A stretch of DNA of 33,229 bases from Patescibacteria group bacterium (GTDB lineage Bacteria; Patescibacteriota; Minisyncoccia; Phycocordibacterales; UBA9973). The stretch is from NCBI GenBank assembly GCA_018816985.1, contig JAHIVA010000035.1:1-33229 (forward strand), read 5' to 3'. Under the pieces are notes generated by a model that saw only the letters and a list, made by a program, of their open reading frames with translations, made no database searches and had not been told where the DNA came from. This document shows positions 2,970 through 32,895 of this stretch, piece by piece. The translations under genes were made by a program, and so were the position numbers. How positions within the stretch are numbered: position 1 is the first letter of the stretch; the number at the start of each line of letters is the position of its first letter.

Positions 2970-4787
2970 TCACATAAGCACTGCTTTGATACGCCTAATA
3001 CCTTGCGCGACCGCCTCTTCTTTTTGAATTTTAAATGGTCCGCCATCCCTCGAATACTCTCGGGATGGCGAACACAACTCCGCTGTGTTCGCCACATGCG
3101 GACCGCCACAGAATTCTCTGCTAAAATAGCCTGCTTTTTCATCTCCAACAGAGTAAACTTTCACTGTATCACCGTATTTCTCGTTAAATGCATGAGCAGC
3201 GATTTTTTCAGCCTCGGCTTTAGGCATTTCTATAAAACTAACCGGCAGTTTTTCGGAAATTTTTTCATTTATAATATCTTCTACTTTTTTCTTTTCTTCT
3301 TCGGTCATTTTTTGTGGATGAGTAAAATCAAAACGCAGCCGTTCGTTGGTAATATTGCTCCCCTTTTGCATCACATGATTACCCAGAACAATCCGCAAGG
3401 CAGCGTTTAGTAAATGCGTAGTCGTATGTAATTTTTTAGTTTCCTCACTCATCTCCGTCAACCCACCCTTGAACATACCCGCAGAAGCAGTACGGGAAAG
3501 TTCTTGGTGTTTTTTAAAAGCATCATCAAACTCTTTTTCGTCAACTTTGTAACCTAACCCTTTCGCAACTGCAATACTTAAACCAGGTGGAACTCCATAC
3601 ATTTGATAGTTTTGGTATATATATAAACCAGAGACAATCCCATTATTTTTAATTATTGGCATATTCCCAATTTTTTTAATTAAACCTAATTTTACCGCCT
3701 CAAGATCTAAGCGATATAATTCAATTTTATCAAAAGACTTTTTAAATTTTTCTTTTTCTTCCCTAAAAATTTTTATAATATATTCTGATTTTTCTCTAAT
3801 TCCAAGATAGATATTGTTATAAATATCAATTATTATCTTAACAAGTCCAATCCAAAATTCTTTTAGGAGCTTAAGTGAAGTGGAATGCCGTAAAAATCTT
3901 CTAATAAGGCGACGTAAAACATAACCTCTTCCATTATTTGAAGGTATCACTCCCTCAGCTGTAATAAATATTGCTGTGCGGATATGATCAGCAATAATCC
4001 TTGCAGATCTTTCATTGTCATTTGTGGAATTTTTTTGAATAAACTGCATTAATGGTGTAAATAAGTCTGTTTCGTAAACACTTTTCTTTTTTTGAACAAT
4101 ACTCAGCAATCGCTCAAAACCCATACCTGTATCAACACCCAAAACATCCAGCTTTTTTAAAGTGGCTTCACCTTTGTCTAATTTATCTCGTGAGCCATTA
4201 CAAAAATATTCATTAAAAACTATATTCCAAATTTCCACATCCTGATTATCCACATTTTTGCAATAAATTTCTGTAGTTGGTCCACAAGGGCCAGAATCTC
4301 CTGTTGGTCCCCAGAAAACATCACTGCCATCTTCACGTATATCTTTCACTCCAAGTTCCTTCCAAATATTTCTTGATTCTTCATCCCTTGGTACAACTCC
4401 TTCTCCTTTATAAAAAGTTATAAAAGAAATTTCTAACCCTAATTCTTTAATAATAAAATCATGCGCGTAAGTAATTGCCTCCTTGCGACCATATCCCCCA
4501 AAAGAAAAATTACCTAACATTTCAAAAAAGGTCAGATGCGTTGCATCTCCAACCTCATCTATGTCACCAGTACGAATACATTTTTGTATGGTTGCAATAT
4601 TTCTGTTACTAAAATCTTTATCCGCATTTTTCGGGTTAATATAATAGGGCTTAAATTGTTGCATTCCGGCAGTCGTAAAAAGCACTGAAGGGTCATTCTC
4701 TGGAATTAATGAAGAAGAAGGAATTATTTTATGCCCTCGGTTTTCAAAAAATTTTAAAAATTTTGACCTGATTTCATCTGATTGCAT
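2970..4787 (-). CDS. alaS: Alanyl-tRNA synthetase (short form without C-Ala domain)
   Basis: Motifs FTTAGMQQFKPYY, GDATHLTFFEMLGNFSFG, TTHLLNAALR (HxxxH-type editing site), CGGPHV, GIRRIKAV; 605 aa. Confidence 0.95.
   Translation of the reverse strand: MQSDEIRSKFLKFFENRGHKIIPSSSLIPENDPSVLFTTAGMQQFKPYYINPKNADKDFSNRNIATIQKCIRTGDIDEVGDATHLTFFEMLGNFSFGGYGRKEAITYAHDFIIKELGLEISFITFYKGEGVVPRDEESRNIWKELGVKDIREDGSDVFWGPTGDSGPCGPTTEIYCKNVDNQDVEIWNIVFNEYFCNGSRDKLDKGEATLKKLDVLGVDTGMGFERLLSIVQKKKSVYETDLFTPLMQFIQKNSTNDNERSARIIADHIRTAIFITAEGVIPSNNGRGYVLRRLIRRFLRHSTSLKLLKEFWIGLVKIIIDIYNNIYLGIREKSEYIIKIFREEKEKFKKSFDKIELYRLDLEAVKLGLIKKIGNMPIIKNNGIVSGLYIYQNYQMYGVPPGLSIAVAKGLGYKVDEKEFDDAFKKHQELSRTASAGMFKGGLTEMSEETKKLHTTTHLLNAALRIVLGNHVMQKGSNITNERLRFDFTHPQKMTEEEKKKVEDIINEKISEKLPVSFIEMPKAEAEKIAAHAFNEKYGDTVKVYSVGDEKAGYFSREFCGGPHVANTAELCSPSREYSRDGGPFKIQKEEAVAQGIRRIKAVLM
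3038..3104. repeat. Compound palindromic element inside the 3' part of alaS
   Basis: Outer GGTCCGC (3038-3044)/GCGGACC (3098-3104); inner CGCCATCCC/GGGATGGCG (3041-3049/3062-3070) and GGCGAACACA/TGTGTTCGCC (3067-3076/3084-3093); inner stems overlap outer and each other at their edges. Confidence 0.88.
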
Positions 4788-7002: not shown

Positions 7003-7935
7003 CTACTGGGTTAAATATTTTAAGATATTTTTTTGATGTTCAGAAAAACTTTTCGCATAATGAATGTTTCCACTTTTATCGTGCAAATAATAAAGATAAA
7101 GTGAATTCTGCGGATGAATAGATGCCAAGATGGCCGCCATCCCCGGATTCCCAACTGGACTCTTTGGTAATCCTTTTGTTTTATAAGTTTCAAGCGCAAC
7201 ATCCACCTGAAGTGGCATATTCAAAGATATTCTTTTCCATAAAATTCCAGAGATAACTCCCCTATCAGTCTCTCCTTTTGCTTCTCCCTCAATAATTGAA
7301 GCCATGATTATAATGTCTCTCTTGTTTTTCCCTAAAGAAACGATTTCTGGAAGAAGGGGGGTAATTTTTTTTTCAAAATTTTCGCCCATTGATTTTAAAG
7401 CTTCTATTTCAGTATCAGTAGTAAAGAAAAAATAAGTGTCCGGGAAAAGGTATCCCTCCTGGTCTTTTGCCAAGAGCAAAAATTTTTCTTTATTAAAATT
7501 TACCAGTTTCTGCACAAAAGTATCGGCAATATCGTCAATATTAAATCCTTCTGGAATTGTCACCTTAATTGGCGCCAAATGTCTTTCTCCGCGGGAAATC
7601 CTCCTAGCCACTTCCCAAACCGGTTCTTTTTCTTCAAATAAATAATCTGCCGGAATGAGGTGTTTTTCTCCTCCGTAAGCTATTGCGAAAAATTCAAAGA
7701 CCGGTCTAAAAGAAATTATGTGTTCTTGTTTTAACTGCAAAGAAACACTCCGCAAACTTGCCCCTAACTCTATTTTCAATATCTTGCCAACTGGAAAATC
7801 AGCTGGCGCGCTTAAAAAAAGAAAATAAAAAATCAAAAACAAAACAATCAAACTAATCGCGTAAAAACTAACTTTTTTATTTTTTTCACTGTCAAACATC
7901 CGATGTTTGACAGATTCGTTTGGTAAGTTTTCCAT
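7003..7935 (-). CDS. mltG: Endolytic transglycosylase MltG (YceG-like)
   Basis: N-terminal TM helix; TIPEGFNIDDIADTF; DIIIMASIIEGEAKGETDRGVISGILWKRI; LPKSPVGNPGMAAILASIHPQNSLYLYYL. Confidence 0.93.
   Translation of the reverse strand: MENLPNESVKHRMFDSEKNKKVSFYAISLIVLFLIFYFLFLSAPADFPVGKILKIELGASLRSVSLQLKQEHIISFRPVFEFFAIAYGGEKHLIPADYLFEEKEPVWEVARRISRGERHLAPIKVTIPEGFNIDDIADTFVQKLVNFNKEKFLLLAKDQEGYLFPDTYFFFTTDTEIEALKSMGENFEKKITPLLPEIVSLGKNKRDIIIMASIIEGEAKGETDRGVISGILWKRISLNMPLQVDVALETYKTKGLPKSPVGNPGMAAILASIHPQNSLYLYYLHDKSGNIHYAKSFSEHQKNILKYLTQ
7889..7913. repeat. 25-bp palindrome in the mltG N-terminal coding region
   Basis: CTGTCAAACAT-ccg-ATGTTTGACAG, 11-bp arms. Confidence 0.93.
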
Positions 7936-13280: not shown

Positions 13281-13333
13281 ACATAGGAAGTTCCTATGTT
13301 GAAAGATAAAGATTACATAGGAATTTCCTATGT
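13281..13333. repeat. Tandem pair of 19-bp palindromes ACATAGGAAnTTCCTATGT in SPFH operon leader
   Basis: 13281-13299 ACATAGGAAGTTCCTATGT and 13315-13333 ACATAGGAATTTCCTATGT, identical apart from the central base. Confidence 0.9.
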
Positions 13334-13397
13334 ATCTGTTATTAAACTCGCGCCCGCGGGGCGCTTAACTAACAGCGCTTGGCGCAAGGAGGAAGTT

Positions 13398-17332: not shown

Positions 17333-18622
17333 CTATTTTAATAATAAAAGATTCAGCTTGGCATTAGCATCTTTGATGGCACCCGCTACCGACAGATTAT
17401 TAGAAAGCACCGCATTGACCATTCCATTAAAAACAGAATCTGTATTTTTAGGTGCTGGGTCAAGCCAGCTTTTCCCATACAAAGCTGAACTATAAAAGAT
17501 GGAAGAGTAAGCGTCATCCGGCACAATTGTTAATAAATCCCGACGAGCTGGAGCTACTCCCGTAGCTACTACCAACTTTGAAGCAAAGTCCCCAGCAGCC
17601 ATTAAACTTGCCGTAATAAAAGCAGCATCAAAATTCTTAGAAAAAGACGAAATAGCCAATCCTGTCACTCGGGCTCCGGTTATTTTTAAATTGGAATTCC
17701 TAATTTGGGGCAAACCGGCAACAAAAAAGTTTTGATTAGGGTTTCTGTTAACCAAAGATTGGAGTTCTCCGGCAAAACCAAAATAAAATGCCAAATCTTC
17801 TCTGGAAAAAGCATCAATGGAGTTTGGTAATGATTTATTCCAAGAATATGTCACATTATTAGGATCCGCAAAGTCAGTATAAAATTTTAAAATTGAAGGA
17901 AGATTAAAACTTCCAATCGATGAATCTAAAGCAGAGACAAGGGTTCCGTTTTTTTCTTGAATAATAGGATTCCCAGCCTGCATAAAAAGAGTAGCCATAA
18001 TATCTTTAGCATGAGTCACGTTAGAGAACTGTCCGAAAGCTATCGCGCTTTTTATAATCTTATTTGCATTGTCTTTTTGGGTGAGTAAAGGCGCAAGATC
18101 AGTCATTTCGTCCCAATAAGTAGGAGGATAAATAACTCCGTTTGCGTCAAGAATACTACGATTATAATACATCATCAATGGGTCAATAGATATTGGAAAA
18201 GCTAAAATACCATTAGCGGTTAAAAAAATTTCCCCGGCAGTAGCAAAATTATTCTTAAAAGAAGCCAAGGGATAACTCTGATACGGAATAGTAAAAATTT
18301 TATCGATATAATGAAAAACTAAATCATTCGGTAAAAAAAATATATCCGGCCCTGTCCCCGAAGCCGCAGCTTCAAGTAAATCTTGGTCAAAAGTATCGGC
18401 AGATTTTTCTTCATAAGTAACGACAATGGTAGGGTTAGCACTATTGAAATCCTTTATTGCGCTAGCCATTAACACATTCGGAATGGTTCCCCACAAAACT
18501 ACTTTACCTAGACTCCCCGTGCTATTTTTACCGAGTGGGATGGCGCCAGAAAAAACCAAAACACCTAAAATGGCTGCAACAACAAATATAATTAAAACAA
18601 TTATTTGAAAATTTCCTTTCAT
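17333..18622 (-). CDS. Family 1-type extracellular solute-binding protein, N-terminally membrane anchored
   Basis: N-terminal TM; VVLWGTIPNVLMASAIKDFNSANPTIVVTYEEKSADTFDQDLLEAAASGTGPDIFFLPNDLV; YNRSILDANGVIYPPTYWDEM. No ABC permease/ATPase gene in the window. Confidence 0.82.
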   Translation of the reverse strand: MKGNFQIIVLIIFVVAAILGVLVFSGAIPLGKNSTGSLGKVVLWGTIPNVLMASAIKDFNSANPTIVVTYEEKSADTFDQDLLEAAASGTGPDIFFLPNDLVFHYIDKIFTIPYQSYPLASFKNNFATAGEIFLTANGILAFPISIDPLMMYYNRSILDANGVIYPPTYWDEMTDLAPLLTQKDNANKIIKSAIAFGQFSNVTHAKDIMATLFMQAGNPIIQEKNGTLVSALDSSIGSFNLPSILKFYTDFADPNNVTYSWNKSLPNSIDAFSREDLAFYFGFAGELQSLVNRNPNQNFFVAGLPQIRNSNLKITGARVTGLAISSFSKNFDAAFITASLMAAGDFASKLVVATGVAPARRDLLTIVPDDAYSSIFYSSALYGKSWLDPAPKNTDSVFNGMVNAVLSNNLSVAGAIKDANAKLNLLLLK

Positions 18623-19167
18623 TGCTTTGTTAATATCATACCATAATGATGCTCCCCTGCGTCAATTTCTCTATCCATTACAAAATCTTTCTTTTGAAAC
18701 ATTTCCAGGGCTTTATCTTTAGAAATAACATTCGTTTCATTCATAAGAGACGATTCGGACCAATCAATTAATAAAACTTTGCCTTTGGGTTTTAAAATTC
18801 TTTTTATCTCTTCAATAAATTTTTCTTTATCTTCTACTTGAAAGAGTACATTGGAAGCAATAACCGCATCCGCCACTACATCTCCTATCCTAGTTCCTCC
18901 GAGCTTTTCTACATTTCCTAAAATAATCTCAACATTGCCCAAATGAGCTTCCTTCGCTCTATTTTTGATGGTGTCTAAAAAATCTTTTTGTAATTCAATA
19001 GCATATACTTTTCCTTTAGGCACCAACGCCCCAGCTGCAATAGCATAATAGCCTGTCCCCGCACCCAAATCCGCCACAATACTATCTTCCTTTAATCCAA
19101 AAGCTTTTAAATTTTTTACTGGATCAGTGAACATCCGTATATTATAGTATATAAAAAACTTATCCAC
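18619..19167 (-). CDS. Class I SAM-dependent methyltransferase
   Basis: VADLGAGTGYYAIAAGALVPKGKVYAIELQKDFLDTIK...NVEIILGNVEKLGG; 4-nt overlap with the following gene. Confidence 0.88.
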   Translation of the reverse strand: MDKFFIYYNIRMFTDPVKNLKAFGLKEDSIVADLGAGTGYYAIAAGALVPKGKVYAIELQKDFLDTIKNRAKEAHLGNVEIILGNVEKLGGTRIGDVVADAVIASNVLFQVEDKEKFIEEIKRILKPKGKVLLIDWSESSLMNETNVISKDKALEMFQKKDFVMDREIDAGEHHYGMILTKQ

Positions 19168-19182
19168 TAGCGGTTATTGTCA

Positions 19183-19209
19183 AATTGTCAAAGGTGCCCT
19201 TTGACAATT
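19183..19209. repeat. Left palindrome flanking the RAYT gene
   Basis: AATTGTCAAAGG-TGC-CCTTTGACAATT (12-bp arms). Confidence 0.92.
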
Positions 19210-19220
19210 ATAATAAAAGA

Positions 19221-19847
19221 ATGAAAAATAGAGATTTAAAAAATTTTGTTCCGGAAACTATTTTCCACATATATAATAGAGGCAATAATAAAGAAAAGAT
19301 ATTTTTTGATGATCAAGACTATAGAGCTTTTCTTTTTCGACTTGGATTATGTTTTGGATTTACTGAAGAAGAATTAAATAAGGAAAAGCTTATAGCTATA
19401 CCCTACTCTAGAATAAGAATTACTTCAATAAATAAAAATAATTTCAAGTTACATGCTTTTTGTCTAATGCCTAATCATTTTCATTTAATGATCGAACAAA
19501 TTGGGAATATTCCAATTTCAAATTTAATGTTAAAAACTTGCACAAGTTACGCAAAATATATTAACAAAAAATACAAAAGAATTGGACACATTTTTCAAGA
19601 CCAATTTAAGGCTGTATTAATAGAAGATAATCCTCAACTCATGTGGACATCAGCTTACATACACATGAATGCAGTAAAAAACAAAATCGTAAAACATCCA
19701 TCAGAATATATGTGGAGTAGTTATAATGATTATGCAAAAGAAAGAAATTTACTAATAGTGAATAAAGAATTATTAATATCTACCTTTGGCGACATAGAAA
19801 ATTTCATAAAACAAACACTAATCTACTATGTCAAAGGTGCCCTTTGA
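19221..19847 (+). mobile_element. REP-associated tyrosine transposase (RAYT; IS200-like Y1/HUH family) gene
   Basis: PETIFHIYNRGNNKEKIFFDDQDYRAFLFRL; HUH motif in HAFCLMPNHFHLMIEQ; candidate catalytic Tyr in SYAKYINKKYKRIGHIFQDQFKAVLIED; AYIHMNAVKNKIVKHPSEYMWSSYNDY. ATG at 19221 (the ORF track TTG start at 19185 lies in the palindrome). Confidence 0.9.
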
Positions 19848-19849
19848 CA
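19829..19849. repeat. Right palindrome flanking the RAYT gene, overlapping its stop codon
   Basis: TGTCAAAGG-TGC-CCTTTGACA; the 23-bp string TGTCAAAGGTGCCCTTTGACAAT occurs at both 19186-19208 and 19829-19851. Confidence 0.93.
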
Positions 19850-19876
19850 ATCTTTGATATTTCATTTTTAACATTA

Positions 19877-20206
19877 CTACACTCCTTCTCTTTTTATATA
19901 AATAAAATCCAAAAGAAAATCCATAATTAAACCAATACCTAAAAACATTAATGGGCGATAAAAAAGCATTAATACTGCAAAAAAAGTTATTATTTTCCAG
20001 TTTTTATGAATAAAGTGAGTCTTAAATGGATTTCTTTTTGGGTGATAAATCGGACGAGAAAATAAATGATCTAAGTCAATTAAATTTGAACCCAACATAA
20101 GCACTAGGTCTATATAATTTGGATTAATGTTTTGAACATGCATCAAGGCATAAAATACGATTAAATTTGATGCAACATGTGTGGGTGTAATCATTTCTAG
20201 ATACAA
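19877..20206 (-). CDS. Small membrane protein, DUF6122-like
   Basis: [19 protein letters not shown]..., [32 protein letters not shown]: conserved His/Asp pattern of small YdjM/DUF6122-like membrane proteins (from memory). Confidence 0.55.
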
Positions 20207-22659
20207 GCCAGCGAGGCAATACCATCTCCGGAACGCAGGCGCATAATCGTCACCCCTTGAGTCTGACGGCCGAGAGAAGAGATATCTTTTAAAGCTGTCC
20301 TAATAACCTGTCCTTTTTTAGACATAGCAATTAACTCCATTTCCTCTCCGGTTAAAACTTTTGCTACAATAAGCTTTCCAGTTTTTGAAGTCACTTTAGC
20401 TGTTTTTACACCAGAACCACCACGCTTCTGAACTTTGTATTCTTTTAAGTTGGTCTTCTTACCGAAGCCATTAGCACTCATAGTTAGAAATGCACCTTTT
20501 TCTGTACTTTTTTTCACAACATCAACGCCAATAGCTTCATCAGTTTTTTTCAATTTAATACCACAAACTCCTCCAGCTGTTCTTCCCATTTCACGCACGT
20601 CGGATTCTTTAAACCTAATAGATTGACCATCCATTGTCGCAATCATAACTTCATCTCCTTTTTCTGTAGAAAGTGCAGAAATAAGCTGGTCGTTTTTATC
20701 TAAACGAATAGCGATAATACCACTTCGACGCACATCTTTAAAACTTTCAGAAGACATTTTCTTGGCAGTACCAGCTCTAGTTACCAACATTAGTGAAGAT
20801 GGAGATTTTGCTAGATCTTTTGGTAAAGCTAGAATAGAAGTCACTTTTTCCTCTCCCGAAAGAGCTAAAAAGTTCATAATGGATTTACCGCGAGTGGCTC
20901 GTCGGCCTTCAGGAATCTCATACATTTTCATTTGATAAACCTTTCCTAAATTTGTAAAGAAGAGCAAATTGCTATGAGTCGAGCCGGAAACAAGCATAGT
21001 CACAAAATCCTCTTCTTTTGTTTCTAAATCAACTACTCCTACTCCTCCCCTTTTTTGAGCATGATATTCAGAAGGGTCGGTACATTTAACGTAACCACCC
21101 GCCGTGAGCACGAGCATTGTTTCTTTTTCTGGAACTAAATCCTCATCAGAAATCTCTTTGACTCCTCCTTTTACTATTTTTGTCCTTCGCTCGTCGGCAT
21201 ATTTCTCGCGAATTTCTTTTAATTCATCAGCGATCGTCTTGAGAATTTTTTTAGGACTAGCTAATAAATCTTTCATAGTCGCAATAAATTTCTGTTTTTC
21301 CAGAAGCTCATCTTCTACCGCCTTACGCTCCAATCCAGCCAATTTGGATAATTTCATTTCTAAAATAGCAGCCGCTTGCAAATCTGAAAACTTAAATTCT
21401 TTCATTAAATTTAGTTTAGCAATTTGAGAATTTTTGGAAGCGCGAATAACAGTAATCACACGGTCTATCTTATCTAGCGCTTTTTTCAAGCCAAGTAAAA
21501 TATGTTCGCGTTCCTGCGCTTTTCTTAAATCATACGCACTTCGTCTTTTCACCACTTCTTTCCGGTGTTCAATAAAAAGATCTAAAATTGATTTAAGCGA
21601 TAAGGTTTGAGGAACACCATCAACCAAAGCCACCATATTAAAATTAAAATTTGATTCAAGTTGGGTATTTTTATAAATATAATTTAAAACTTTTTCCGGA
21701 TGAGCGCTCGGTTTCAGGTCTATGACAATTCTAATATCTTTTGTGGATTCATCGCGTAGCCCTTTGATACCTTCCAGTTTTTTTTCTTGAACCAATTCAG
21801 CTATCGACACAATTAAATTTGCTTTATTAACCCGAAACGGAATAGATGTGACGATAATAGAAAAGTTGCCGTCCTTTTGTTCCACTATCTCTGCCTCACC
21901 CCGACAAACAACTCCACCTCTTCCTGAACCATAAGCGTGCAATATGTCTTTATGTCCATAAGCAATCCCGCCAGTAGGAAAATCGGGTCCTTTAATAAAC
22001 TGCATTAAATCTTCCGTAGTAGCATCATTATTTTCAATTAAATAATTTGTCGCATCTAATACTTCCGCCAAATTGTGTGAAGGAATATTTGTTGCCATAC
22101 CAACAGCAATACCTAACGTACCATTCAGTAGAAGTGCCGGCACTGCCGTGGGAAAGACTATTGGCTCCTGCCGAGTCTGGTCATAATTCGGGCGAAAATC
22201 TACTGTTTCTTTTTCCAAATCCCGCAAAAGTTCTCCCGCAATTTTAGACATTTTTGCTTCGGTATAACGCATCGCTGCGGCATTGTCTCCATCAATGGAA
22301 CCAAAATTTCCTTGACCTAAAACAAGTGGATAACGATAAGAAAATTCCTGGGCCATCCCAACCATAGAATCATAAACAGCCGTATCTCCATGAGGGTGGT
22401 ATTTTCCAAGCACATCTCCAACAATAGCTGCAGATTTTCGAAAACGGGCAGAAGAAGTAAGCCCCATTTCATTCATTCCGAACAAAATTCGGCGGTGCAC
22501 AGGTTTTAACCCATCCCGAACATCTGGCAGAGCACGAGCCGTGATAACAGTCATAGCATAAGCGATATAGGATTCTTTCATTTCTGCCACAATATCAACA
22601 GGCAAAATCAAATCTGCCGGTATTTCTTCTTTTGATTCAGTTGAAGGCTTTTTTGCCAT
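20197..22659 (-). CDS. gyrA: DNA gyrase subunit A
   Basis: [76 protein letters not shown] (GyrA-box-like), six C-terminal blades. Confidence 0.95.
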
Positions 22660-24744: not shown

Positions 24745-24759
24745 AAAAAACAATTCTAC

Positions 24760-24788
24760 AAAAAATCCCGCCAGAAACGGGATTTTTT
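24760..24788 (+). terminator. Rho-independent terminator of rpsA
   Basis: AAAAAATCCCG-ccagaaa-CGGGATTTTTT (11-bp stem). Confidence 0.88.
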
Positions 24789-24792
24789 GCGT

Positions 24793-24819
24793 AATGAAGA
24801 ACGCCAGGCGTTCTTCATT
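24793..24819. repeat. 27-bp perfect palindrome between convergent genes
   Basis: AATGAAGAACGCC-a-GGCGTTCTTCATT (13-bp arms, single central base). Confidence 0.92.
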
Positions 24820-28419: not shown

Positions 28420-29722
28420 AAGCCTTTCTGAACTCCTCCATATCGTCAAAATGATGCTTGACACCTTTGATTTCCTGATAATCTTCGTGCCCTTTGCCGG
28501 CACAAAGAACAATATCTCCTTTTTGCGCAATTTTAATTGCTTCAAGAATCGCTTCACGTCTATTTGGTATTATTTTTACCTTTTTTAAATCTTCTGAAGA
28601 TAAATTTATTTTCATCTGTTCAATAATTTTATCCGGATCTTCGCTTCGCGGATTGTCTGAAGTAAAAATAGCAATATCTGATAATCTTGCACCCAGCTTG
28701 CCCATAAGTGGACGCTTAAGCGGGTCGCGATCACCTCCGCAACCAAAGACTGAAATTACTCGCCCTGAGCTTGTCGAATAGGTTTTTATTCCTTGCACTG
28801 TTTTTAAAACATTTTGGAGAGCATCAGGAGTATGGGCATAATCTACAATTACCATAACTCCTGAGATATTTTTAAAATAATCAAATCTCCCTTTAGGTGG
28901 TAAAACATTTTTAAGTTGCTCTTTTACCTTTTCTTTATCAAAACCTAATAACACACAAGCACTCCAAACAGCCAATAAATTGTAAGCATTAAATTTACCC
29001 AGCAAGTTTGTTTTTACTTTTTCCTTGTTTATTTCAAGTTCCAGTCCAGAAAAATCTAGTTTTTTAATTTCTCCAAAGAAATAACTACTTTCTTCCCCGA
29101 AGTCAGACTTAGGGGAATTTCCCCTAAGTCTGACTTCGGGGAAATCCTGAAATCCATAGAAAAATTTACGGGCTTTTATAGCTTCTAACATTTTTATCCC
29201 GTATTCGTTATCTGTATTAGAAAGCGCAAAAGCTTTTTCATTTAACATATTAAAAAATTTCTTTTTTGCGCCAAAATAATTATCAAAATTTTGATGGTAA
29301 TCTAAATGGTCGTGGGTTAAATTCGTAAAAATTCCTCCAGTAAAATTTATCCCTGCTACTCGACCCTGATCCAAGGCATGAGAAGAAACTTCCATAAAAA
29401 CGTATTCACAACCTTTTTCCATCATTTTATTAAATAATCTATATAAAGTTATGGGGTCCGGAGTAGTGCCGGGAATTGGTCTATCCTCAAGAACAGTAAG
29501 AACCTCTCCGTTAATAATATTTTCTACTGTACTAATTAGTCCAGCTTTGTGCCCAAGCGCAATTGTAATTTTATAAAGCAAGGTTGCTGTTGTAGTTTTA
29601 CCATTAGTTCCCGTCACTCCAACAATTTTCAACTTCACCGAAGGGTTGCCAAAAAAATGCATTCCTGCCAGCATCGCAATCCCCCGCCTTTTAAGTTTTA
29701 AACTTTTAATTATGTTTTTCAT
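28412..29722 (-). CDS. murE: UDP-N-acetylmuramyl-tripeptide synthetase MurE-type ligase (short N-terminus)
   Basis: GVTGTNGKTTTATLLYK, PGTTPDPITLYRLF, MEVSSHALDQGRVAGINFTGGIFTNLTHDHLDYHQNF, VDYAHTPDALQNVL, VFGCGGDRDPLKRPLMG, DNPRSEDPDKI, GKGHEDYQEI. Confidence 0.93.
   Translation of the reverse strand: MKNIIKSLKLKRRGIAMLAGMHFFGNPSVKLKIVGVTGTNGKTTTATLLYKITIALGHKAGLISTVENIINGEVLTVLEDRPIPGTTPDPITLYRLFNKMMEKGCEYVFMEVSSHALDQGRVAGINFTGGIFTNLTHDHLDYHQNFDNYFGAKKKFFNMLNEKAFALSNTDNEYGIKMLEAIKARKFFYGFQDFPEVRLRGNSPKSDFGEESSYFFGEIKKLDFSGLELEINKEKVKTNLLGKFNAYNLLAVWSACVLLGFDKEKVKEQLKNVLPPKGRFDYFKNISGVMVIVDYAHTPDALQNVLKTVQGIKTYSTSSGRVISVFGCGGDRDPLKRPLMGKLGARLSDIAIFTSDNPRSEDPDKIIEQMKINLSSEDLKKVKIIPNRREAILEAIKIAQKGDIVLCAGKGHEDYQEIKGVKHHFDDMEEFRKAFI
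29093..29143. repeat. 51-bp perfect palindrome inside murE
   Basis: TTCCCCGAAGTCAGACTTAGGGGAA-t-TTCCCCTAAGTCTGACTTCGGGGAA: 25-bp arms, one central base. Confidence 0.95.
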
Positions 29723-32752: not shown

Positions 32753-32837
32753 TTATCTCGCATATCAAAACATAATACAATACTTTTTTTACAAAACTGT
32801 GGATAACTCTTCGACTTCGCTCAGAATAAACTTTTTA

Positions 32838-32880
32838 AAAATAAAAAAACACAAAAAATTATTTTGTGTTTTTTTATTTT
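32838..32880. terminator. Bidirectional-type terminator, 19-bp stem
   Basis: AAAATAAAAAAACACAAAA-aatta-TTTTGTGTTTTTTTATTTT. Confidence 0.75.
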
Positions 32881-32895
32881 TTTATTTTCATTTGA

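Follow-up and report, generated by a model that had tools for sequence, protein, structure and literature searches.

The protein encoded at positions 19221..19847 (+) of the DNA analysed here, a stretch of 33,229 nucleotides referred to as the window, resembles RAYTs (REP-associated tyrosine transposases), and its gene is bracketed by a palindrome pair. The most probable explanation is that of a resident RAYT with cognate hairpin repeats. Comparisons made at the sequence level argue that Patescibacteria have a RAYT-REP system without tag and mainly intragenic, in which we infer movement of the repeats. A tiny uncultured bacterium closely related to Candidatus Nomurabacteria is the source of the window, which forms contig C129 of its draft genome (1.02 Mb; estimated completeness 100%, contamination 8%). 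This genome was examined by pattern searches and in chosen stretches. All genomes used are drafts, obtained from metagenomes or similar sources; contamination is about 8% in the genome under study, yet the same pattern is found in relatives with 1%.

The sequence TGTCAAAGGTGCCCTTTGACAAT is found at two sites in the window, 19186-19208 and 19829-19851, on either side of the Y1/HUH transposase gene, exactly where the sequence-only reading had placed this 23-bp repeat. The left palindrome, AATTGTCAAAGGTGCCCTTTGACAATT (19183..19209, no strand), is 27 bp long and perfect, with 12-bp arms and a 3-nt loop, and ends 11 nt upstream of the RAYT ATG. The right one, TGTCAAAGGTGCCCTTTGACA (19829..19849, no strand), is a perfect 21-bp palindrome, and corresponds to the core common to both. 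Allowing up to 3 mismatches, this 21-bp core has no third site in the window (chance expectation 0.00). The ORF (208 aa) is intact from the ATG at 19221 to the TGA at 19845-19847; the stop codon is read from the right palindrome, and the C-terminal VKGAL* is therefore palindrome-encoded. The left palindrome is the spacer of a promoter-like TTGTCA-18-TATAAT site (19185..19214, +), recognised by consensus only (11 of 12 positions) and by the flanks in orthologues. Binding of the protein to this palindrome, which overlaps the promoter-like site, may autoregulate the gene. The right palindrome is the sole terminator-like site in the RAYT region. The syntenic anchors of the locus are a methyltransferase gene on the left (18619..19167, -) and gyrA on the right (20197..22659, -). 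Scanning the window against Rfam yielded one tRNA and no other match, and zero exact copies of the palindrome TGTCAAAGAGACACTTTGACA were found in viral contigs.

The window protein scores 42.5 bits with Pfam Y1_Tnp (cut-off 23) and 58.2 bits with the NCBIfam RAYT model NF047646 (REP_Tyr_transpos). The latter score is under the cut-off of 80, and the protein is accordingly regarded as a divergent RAYT member or as belonging to a sister group. The HUH motif H86-F87-H88 (19476..19484, +) and Tyr146 (19656..19658, +), the candidate catalytic residue within YIHMN, are invariant in 25 orthologues, H86, H88 and Y146 being unvarying in all; the frames of the orthologues are similarly intact. The catalytic role of Tyr146 is presumed from what is familiar of these enzymes. 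The motifs of the orthologues read NHFH and YIHMN[APS]. The second fits the class-2 pattern Y-x-x-x-N(P), with A replacing P in the window protein, which features YIHMN instead of the Y-x-x-x-Q motif of TnpA(IS200). An AlphaFold model built on 25 aligned sequences (pLDDT 85, pTM 0.86) predicts a TnpAREP fold. Its closest PDB match is 4er8 (E 2.8e-5, prob 1.00, TMt 0.68), the E. coli REP-associated tyrosine transposase in complex with a REP hairpin; IS608 and ISDra2 rank behind.

The genome hosts 12 Y1 genes, 11 besides the window RAYT, and same-genus relatives have up to 13. A shared palindrome pair brackets 64 of 86 testable Y1 genes, compared with 13 of 478 other ORFs at the same loci. Across the bracketed genes the left palindrome begins about 50 nt before the ATG and the right one starts close to the stop codon, with which it overlaps in 32 of the 64 genes; the span is about 735 bp. 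Each Y1 gene has its own palindrome, and the more alike two proteins are, the more similar their palindromes tend to be (Mantel rho 0.36, p 0.001), palindrome and protein lineages tracking each other. The tree of Y1 proteins comprises 90 sequences. No conserved flank tag or cleavage site, and no GT[AG]G/GTAG-type foot, was found at 24 left and 21 right palindromes. In some Y1 subfamilies a third palindrome copy lies in frame within the transposase gene; the window RAYT gene has no internal copy. Distant relatives in Cyanobacteria, Bacteroidota and Chloroflexi (L324-L373) often feature longer palindromes at both ends, as AGATCCCCGACTTCTT..AAGAAGTCGGGGATCT. Two RAYT copies encoding an identical protein reside in a mosaic of repeats at L054 (G004:C3:95500-101000); their left ends fall within terminator hairpins, a different one for each copy, and close to either hairpin there is a paralogue of it without interruption. 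These duplicates were discarded as clean occupied/empty pairs, since about 200 bp of downstream DNA are duplicated too, and only the left boundary is informative.

That palindromes are also scattered in the genome, as proposed in general terms by the sequence-only reading, is borne out: TGTCAAA-N0-12-TTTGACA occurs at 12 places in the genome under study, against 1 for the reversed-pattern control. The pattern TGTCAARG-N3-7-CYTTGACA is present in 27 of 60 genomes, and the reversed control gave zero matches. Doublets 4-12 bp apart occur, mostly inverted, as in REPINs. Across the genus, copies of the flanking REP are dispersed in the host genomes. The expected co-occurrence of RAYT and palindromes holds as a difference in number: ten genomes with a window-type RAYT feature a median of 4.5 further copies, same-genus genomes without it a median of 1 (Mann-Whitney p 2e-5). 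It does not hold as strict dependence, as some relatives lacking the window-type RAYT keep copies (six in G035, five in G014). The RAYT-REP arrangement originally proposed is supported by these figures together with the bracketing of Y1 genes and the 4er8 match.

The tips of the hairpins flanking window-type RAYTs have diverged into 11 types among 25 loci. In 22 of 25 species the left tip equals the right one (2.7 expected, p 1e-5), and the two hairpins are direct or inverted with equal frequency (11:11). The exact resident tip is carried by 26 of 56 dispersed copies in ten genomes, compared with 6.6 expected by shuffling residents among genomes (p 3e-5); the species are related, and both copy-number and tip tests overstate independence and are somewhat weakened. 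Resident-tip dispersed copies are missing in 3 of the ten genomes. Among these is the genome under study, whose four dispersed TGTCAARG palindromes have related stems and other tips, none that of the window RAYT. Such tips would suit a situation in which another enzyme, for example one of the 11 other Y1 gene products, spreads the palindromes, and the window RAYT stands by inert, having itself been decorated; the copies kept by relatives lacking a window-type RAYT fit as well. We hold this to be improbable, as resident-tip matches are well above chance elsewhere in the genus, and HUH motif, tyrosine and reading frames are preserved in the orthologues.

The window-type RAYT is found between the same methyltransferase gene and gyrA in all nine same-genus loci compared, and at this place in most of the GTDB loci read, some under other group names. 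The RAYT gene is next to gyrA in almost every one of some 25 related species. Its close relatives are found in MAGs named Candidatus Nomurabacteria and Zambryskibacteria. A gyrA-linked RAYT of Nomurabacteria type is also present in L314, a MAG labelled Simkania sp., probably mislabelled or a mixed bin. Within the genus there is one copy per genome. Single copy and single gyrA-side locus are RAYT-like behaviour and argue against an insertion sequence; by comparison of these loci, the gene is vertically inherited, long resident and RAYT-like. A methyltransferase-gyrA locus without RAYT was not seen, the neighbouring DUF6122 gene being absent from the relatives searched. That the gene is an ordinary autonomous IS200/IS605-type insertion sequence, with two end hairpins near-perfect by chance, is very improbable: the Y1 domain, a hairpin at each end, the span of about 735 bp and the two copies of another subfamily lying about 2.2 kb apart in G004, with left ends in two different hairpins, are in line with it, but against it stand the single copy of the window subfamily at one gyrA locus in the various species, with no set of near-identical copies at varying sites, the class 2 motif Y-x-x-x-N in place of Y-x-x-x-Q, a top fold match to a RAYT and not to IS608 or ISDra2, and left and right hairpins as often inverted as direct.

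Most dispersed copies lie within protein-coding genes, and the palindromes are therefore not 'extragenic', a point missed by the initial reading. Ninety-two distinct palindromes were read, and 74 were left after removing by hand about 12 RAYT-flanking ones and six of G054, which belong to another family and are all intergenic. About 61 of the 74 are located wholly within ORFs of at least 110 aa. Reading frames are used in the proportion 49:13:0, the third one containing TGA. Profile searches identified as host genes those encoding LeuRS, a HolB-like protein, PurH, LigA, DusB, UvrC, TypA, ArgRS, RNase H, KsgA, PurD, cysteine desulfurase and a Mur ligase. The PurH gene of the genome under study has 27 additional nt in frame, palindrome included, relative to six relatives without insert (74-79% identity), which read ...F[QE]G-xx-LRYGENPHQ or near; in PurH of G014, 57 additional nt in frame correspond to a doublet. 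PurH excepted, species-level genomes are too distant for clean empty sites. In nine of 30 species an intact palindrome lies in the same helix-helix loop of the HolB-like gene; its stem is of the window type in eight and the TATCAAGG variant in one. Of the remaining species, some have apparent decayed remnants and the rest none. In seven species (L264, L266, L272, L273, L274, L277, L279) the insert in this loop is a different one, some 20-25 residues long and similar to FSGLTLPGVPxGTHTxQNS, which may represent a second type of in-frame element. At sites shared by different species (HolB-like loop, KsgA, a methyltransferase, cysteine desulfurase, LeuRS) tips differ from species to species. When PurH, LeuRS and PyrF were aligned to PDB structures, inserts fell in variable regions, and their ends are not fixed. 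Palindromes are also found in frame in the same gene at L137 (G017) and L138 (G013); the L137 copy lies in a reverse transcriptase gene, according to Pfam.

The location within genes weighs against a purely regulatory role, in which the left palindrome would be an operator, the right one a bidirectional terminator between the convergent RAYT and gyrA genes, and the dispersed ones operators or terminators of the same regulators. The promoter spacer formed by the left palindrome, in a strong promoter-like site, and the terminator-like nature of the right one agree with it, but most dispersed copies are in frame within ORFs and add codons relative to homologues, and from species to species the two arms vary in concert, something that a fixed regulator would not require; this role is rejected as the main explanation, and we give it very little credit.

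Some other palindromes in the window resemble those of different Y1 genes. The one in mltG (7889..7913, no strand), noticed earlier and taken as a sign of mobilisation by the window enzyme, does exist and spans codons 8-16 in the N-terminal tail. The link to the window enzyme falls, because the palindrome has the stem of a different RAYT, located on contig C23 (TGTCAAACA..TGTTTGACA). The palindrome is a likely insertion, likely rather than proven, since in the alignment it sits in a variable N-terminal tail. A murE-like gene hosts a 51-nt in-frame doublet (29093..29143, -) encoding FPEVRLRGNSPKSDFGE; the doublet is similar to the palindromes that go with the RAYTs on contigs C8 and C107. The palindrome TACATAGGAATTTCCTATGTA at 13314-13334, near the start of a Band-7 gene and probably upstream of its true start codon, has its match in the palindrome of a RAYT located on contig C89 (L009). 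The 29-nt palindrome TGGCGAACACAACTCCGCTGTGTTCGCCA (3066-3094) lies within an alanyl-tRNA synthetase-like gene, and no matching RAYT was identified. Long intergenic palindromes at 24759-24819 and 32837-32881, with 12-bp and 20-bp arms, are perhaps terminators.

With a resident RAYT acting on cognate hairpins, the protein would bind the palindrome as a single-strand hairpin, and Tyr146 would nick near the hairpin foot, as may be expected from family knowledge. The excised or copied hairpin, single or as a REPIN-like inverted pair, would be joined into single-stranded DNA at replication forks. Insertions keeping the frame in surface loops or linkers would survive, others would be purged. Tips may be replaced through conversion or when a new palindrome inserts at or next to an older one, and copies would drift together within a species. 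Among the genomes compared, no insertion in action was caught for the window RAYT subfamily. The data suggest that the RAYT family writes short peptides into essential proteins. A bolder proposal, possible but rather doubtful, is that the resident HUH enzyme re-edits the same sites, rewriting intragenic hairpins in place, with tips that often match the RAYT of the species concerned and with concerted peptide changes across essential proteins.

Elements of the IS200/IS605 group, as IS608 and ISDra2, similarly have hairpins at both ends, and Y1 chemistry and hairpin recognition are typical of this family. The system described here differs for the fixed orthologous locus, the one copy per genome, the lack of an adjacent TnpB and the class-2 Y motif. 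Groups of RAYTs have reportedly been defined by Bertels et al. 2017. Closer are the RAYT/TnpAREP-REP associations, or REPtrons, of class 2 of Quentin et al. 2018 (PMC6006769), in which a single-copy HUH/Tyr transposase of RAYT fold and low mobility is likewise flanked on either side by gene-specific palindromes, and REPs are dispersed as singlets and inverted doublets. In contrast to these, here the GT[AG]G foot is missing, palindromes are short, vary at the tip and flank the gene not only in inverted but often in direct orientation, dispersed copies are mainly intragenic, and many RAYTs are hosted by genomes of about 1 Mb or less. The GT[AG]G tetranucleotide is likewise missing in TnpAREP subclasses 2.6 and 3 (PMC6006769). 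In subclass 2.4 (Bertels group 4) REPs are inserted in the transposase gene (PMC6006769), which recalls the in-frame internal palindromes of several sister subfamilies and the long palindromes at both ends in the wider relatives from Cyanobacteria, Bacteroidota and Chloroflexi. In subclass 2.4, however, internal REPs lie between HUH and Tyr and motifs are WQ and YIxNNP, whereas here internal copies mostly precede the HUH motif, motifs are FQ and YIHLNP/YIHMN, and the window gene lacks an internal copy.

Rickettsia palindromic elements (RPEs) and intragenic CGTC/GTAG REPs (PMC3733652, PMC10969869) similarly lie in frame in unrelated housekeeping genes, DNA ligase and UvrABC genes included, as singles or doublets. 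The in-frame insertion in unrelated coding genes seen here would be a functional parallel only. CGTC repeats, including RPE-4 and RPE-6, are stated to have no association with transposase genes (PMC3733652), in contrast to the palindromes described here, which are linked to a cognate transposase. RAYT-REP systems, REPs within their own transposase gene (subclass 2.4) and intragenic REPs were already known (PMC6006769, PMC3733652). A literature search found no paper on such a RAYT-palindrome system in Patescibacteria. As far as the searched literature shows, the host group, the missing GTAG foot and the mainly intragenic distribution are new, as are the abundance of private RAYT-palindrome pairs in genomes so small and the tip barcode tying intragenic copies to the resident enzyme.

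The route by which Rickettsia-type palindromes enter protein-coding genes has been an open question since 2000. Here intragenic palindromes coexist with a cognate, vertically inherited enzyme and the hairpin tip is a barcode that connects source and copies, which makes the mechanism directly testable. The findings extend RAYT systems to Patescibacteria, where, opposite to the reported trend of RAYTs towards large genomes (PMC6006769), as many as 13 Y1 genes are found in small genomes, and the majority of these genes have a private palindrome.
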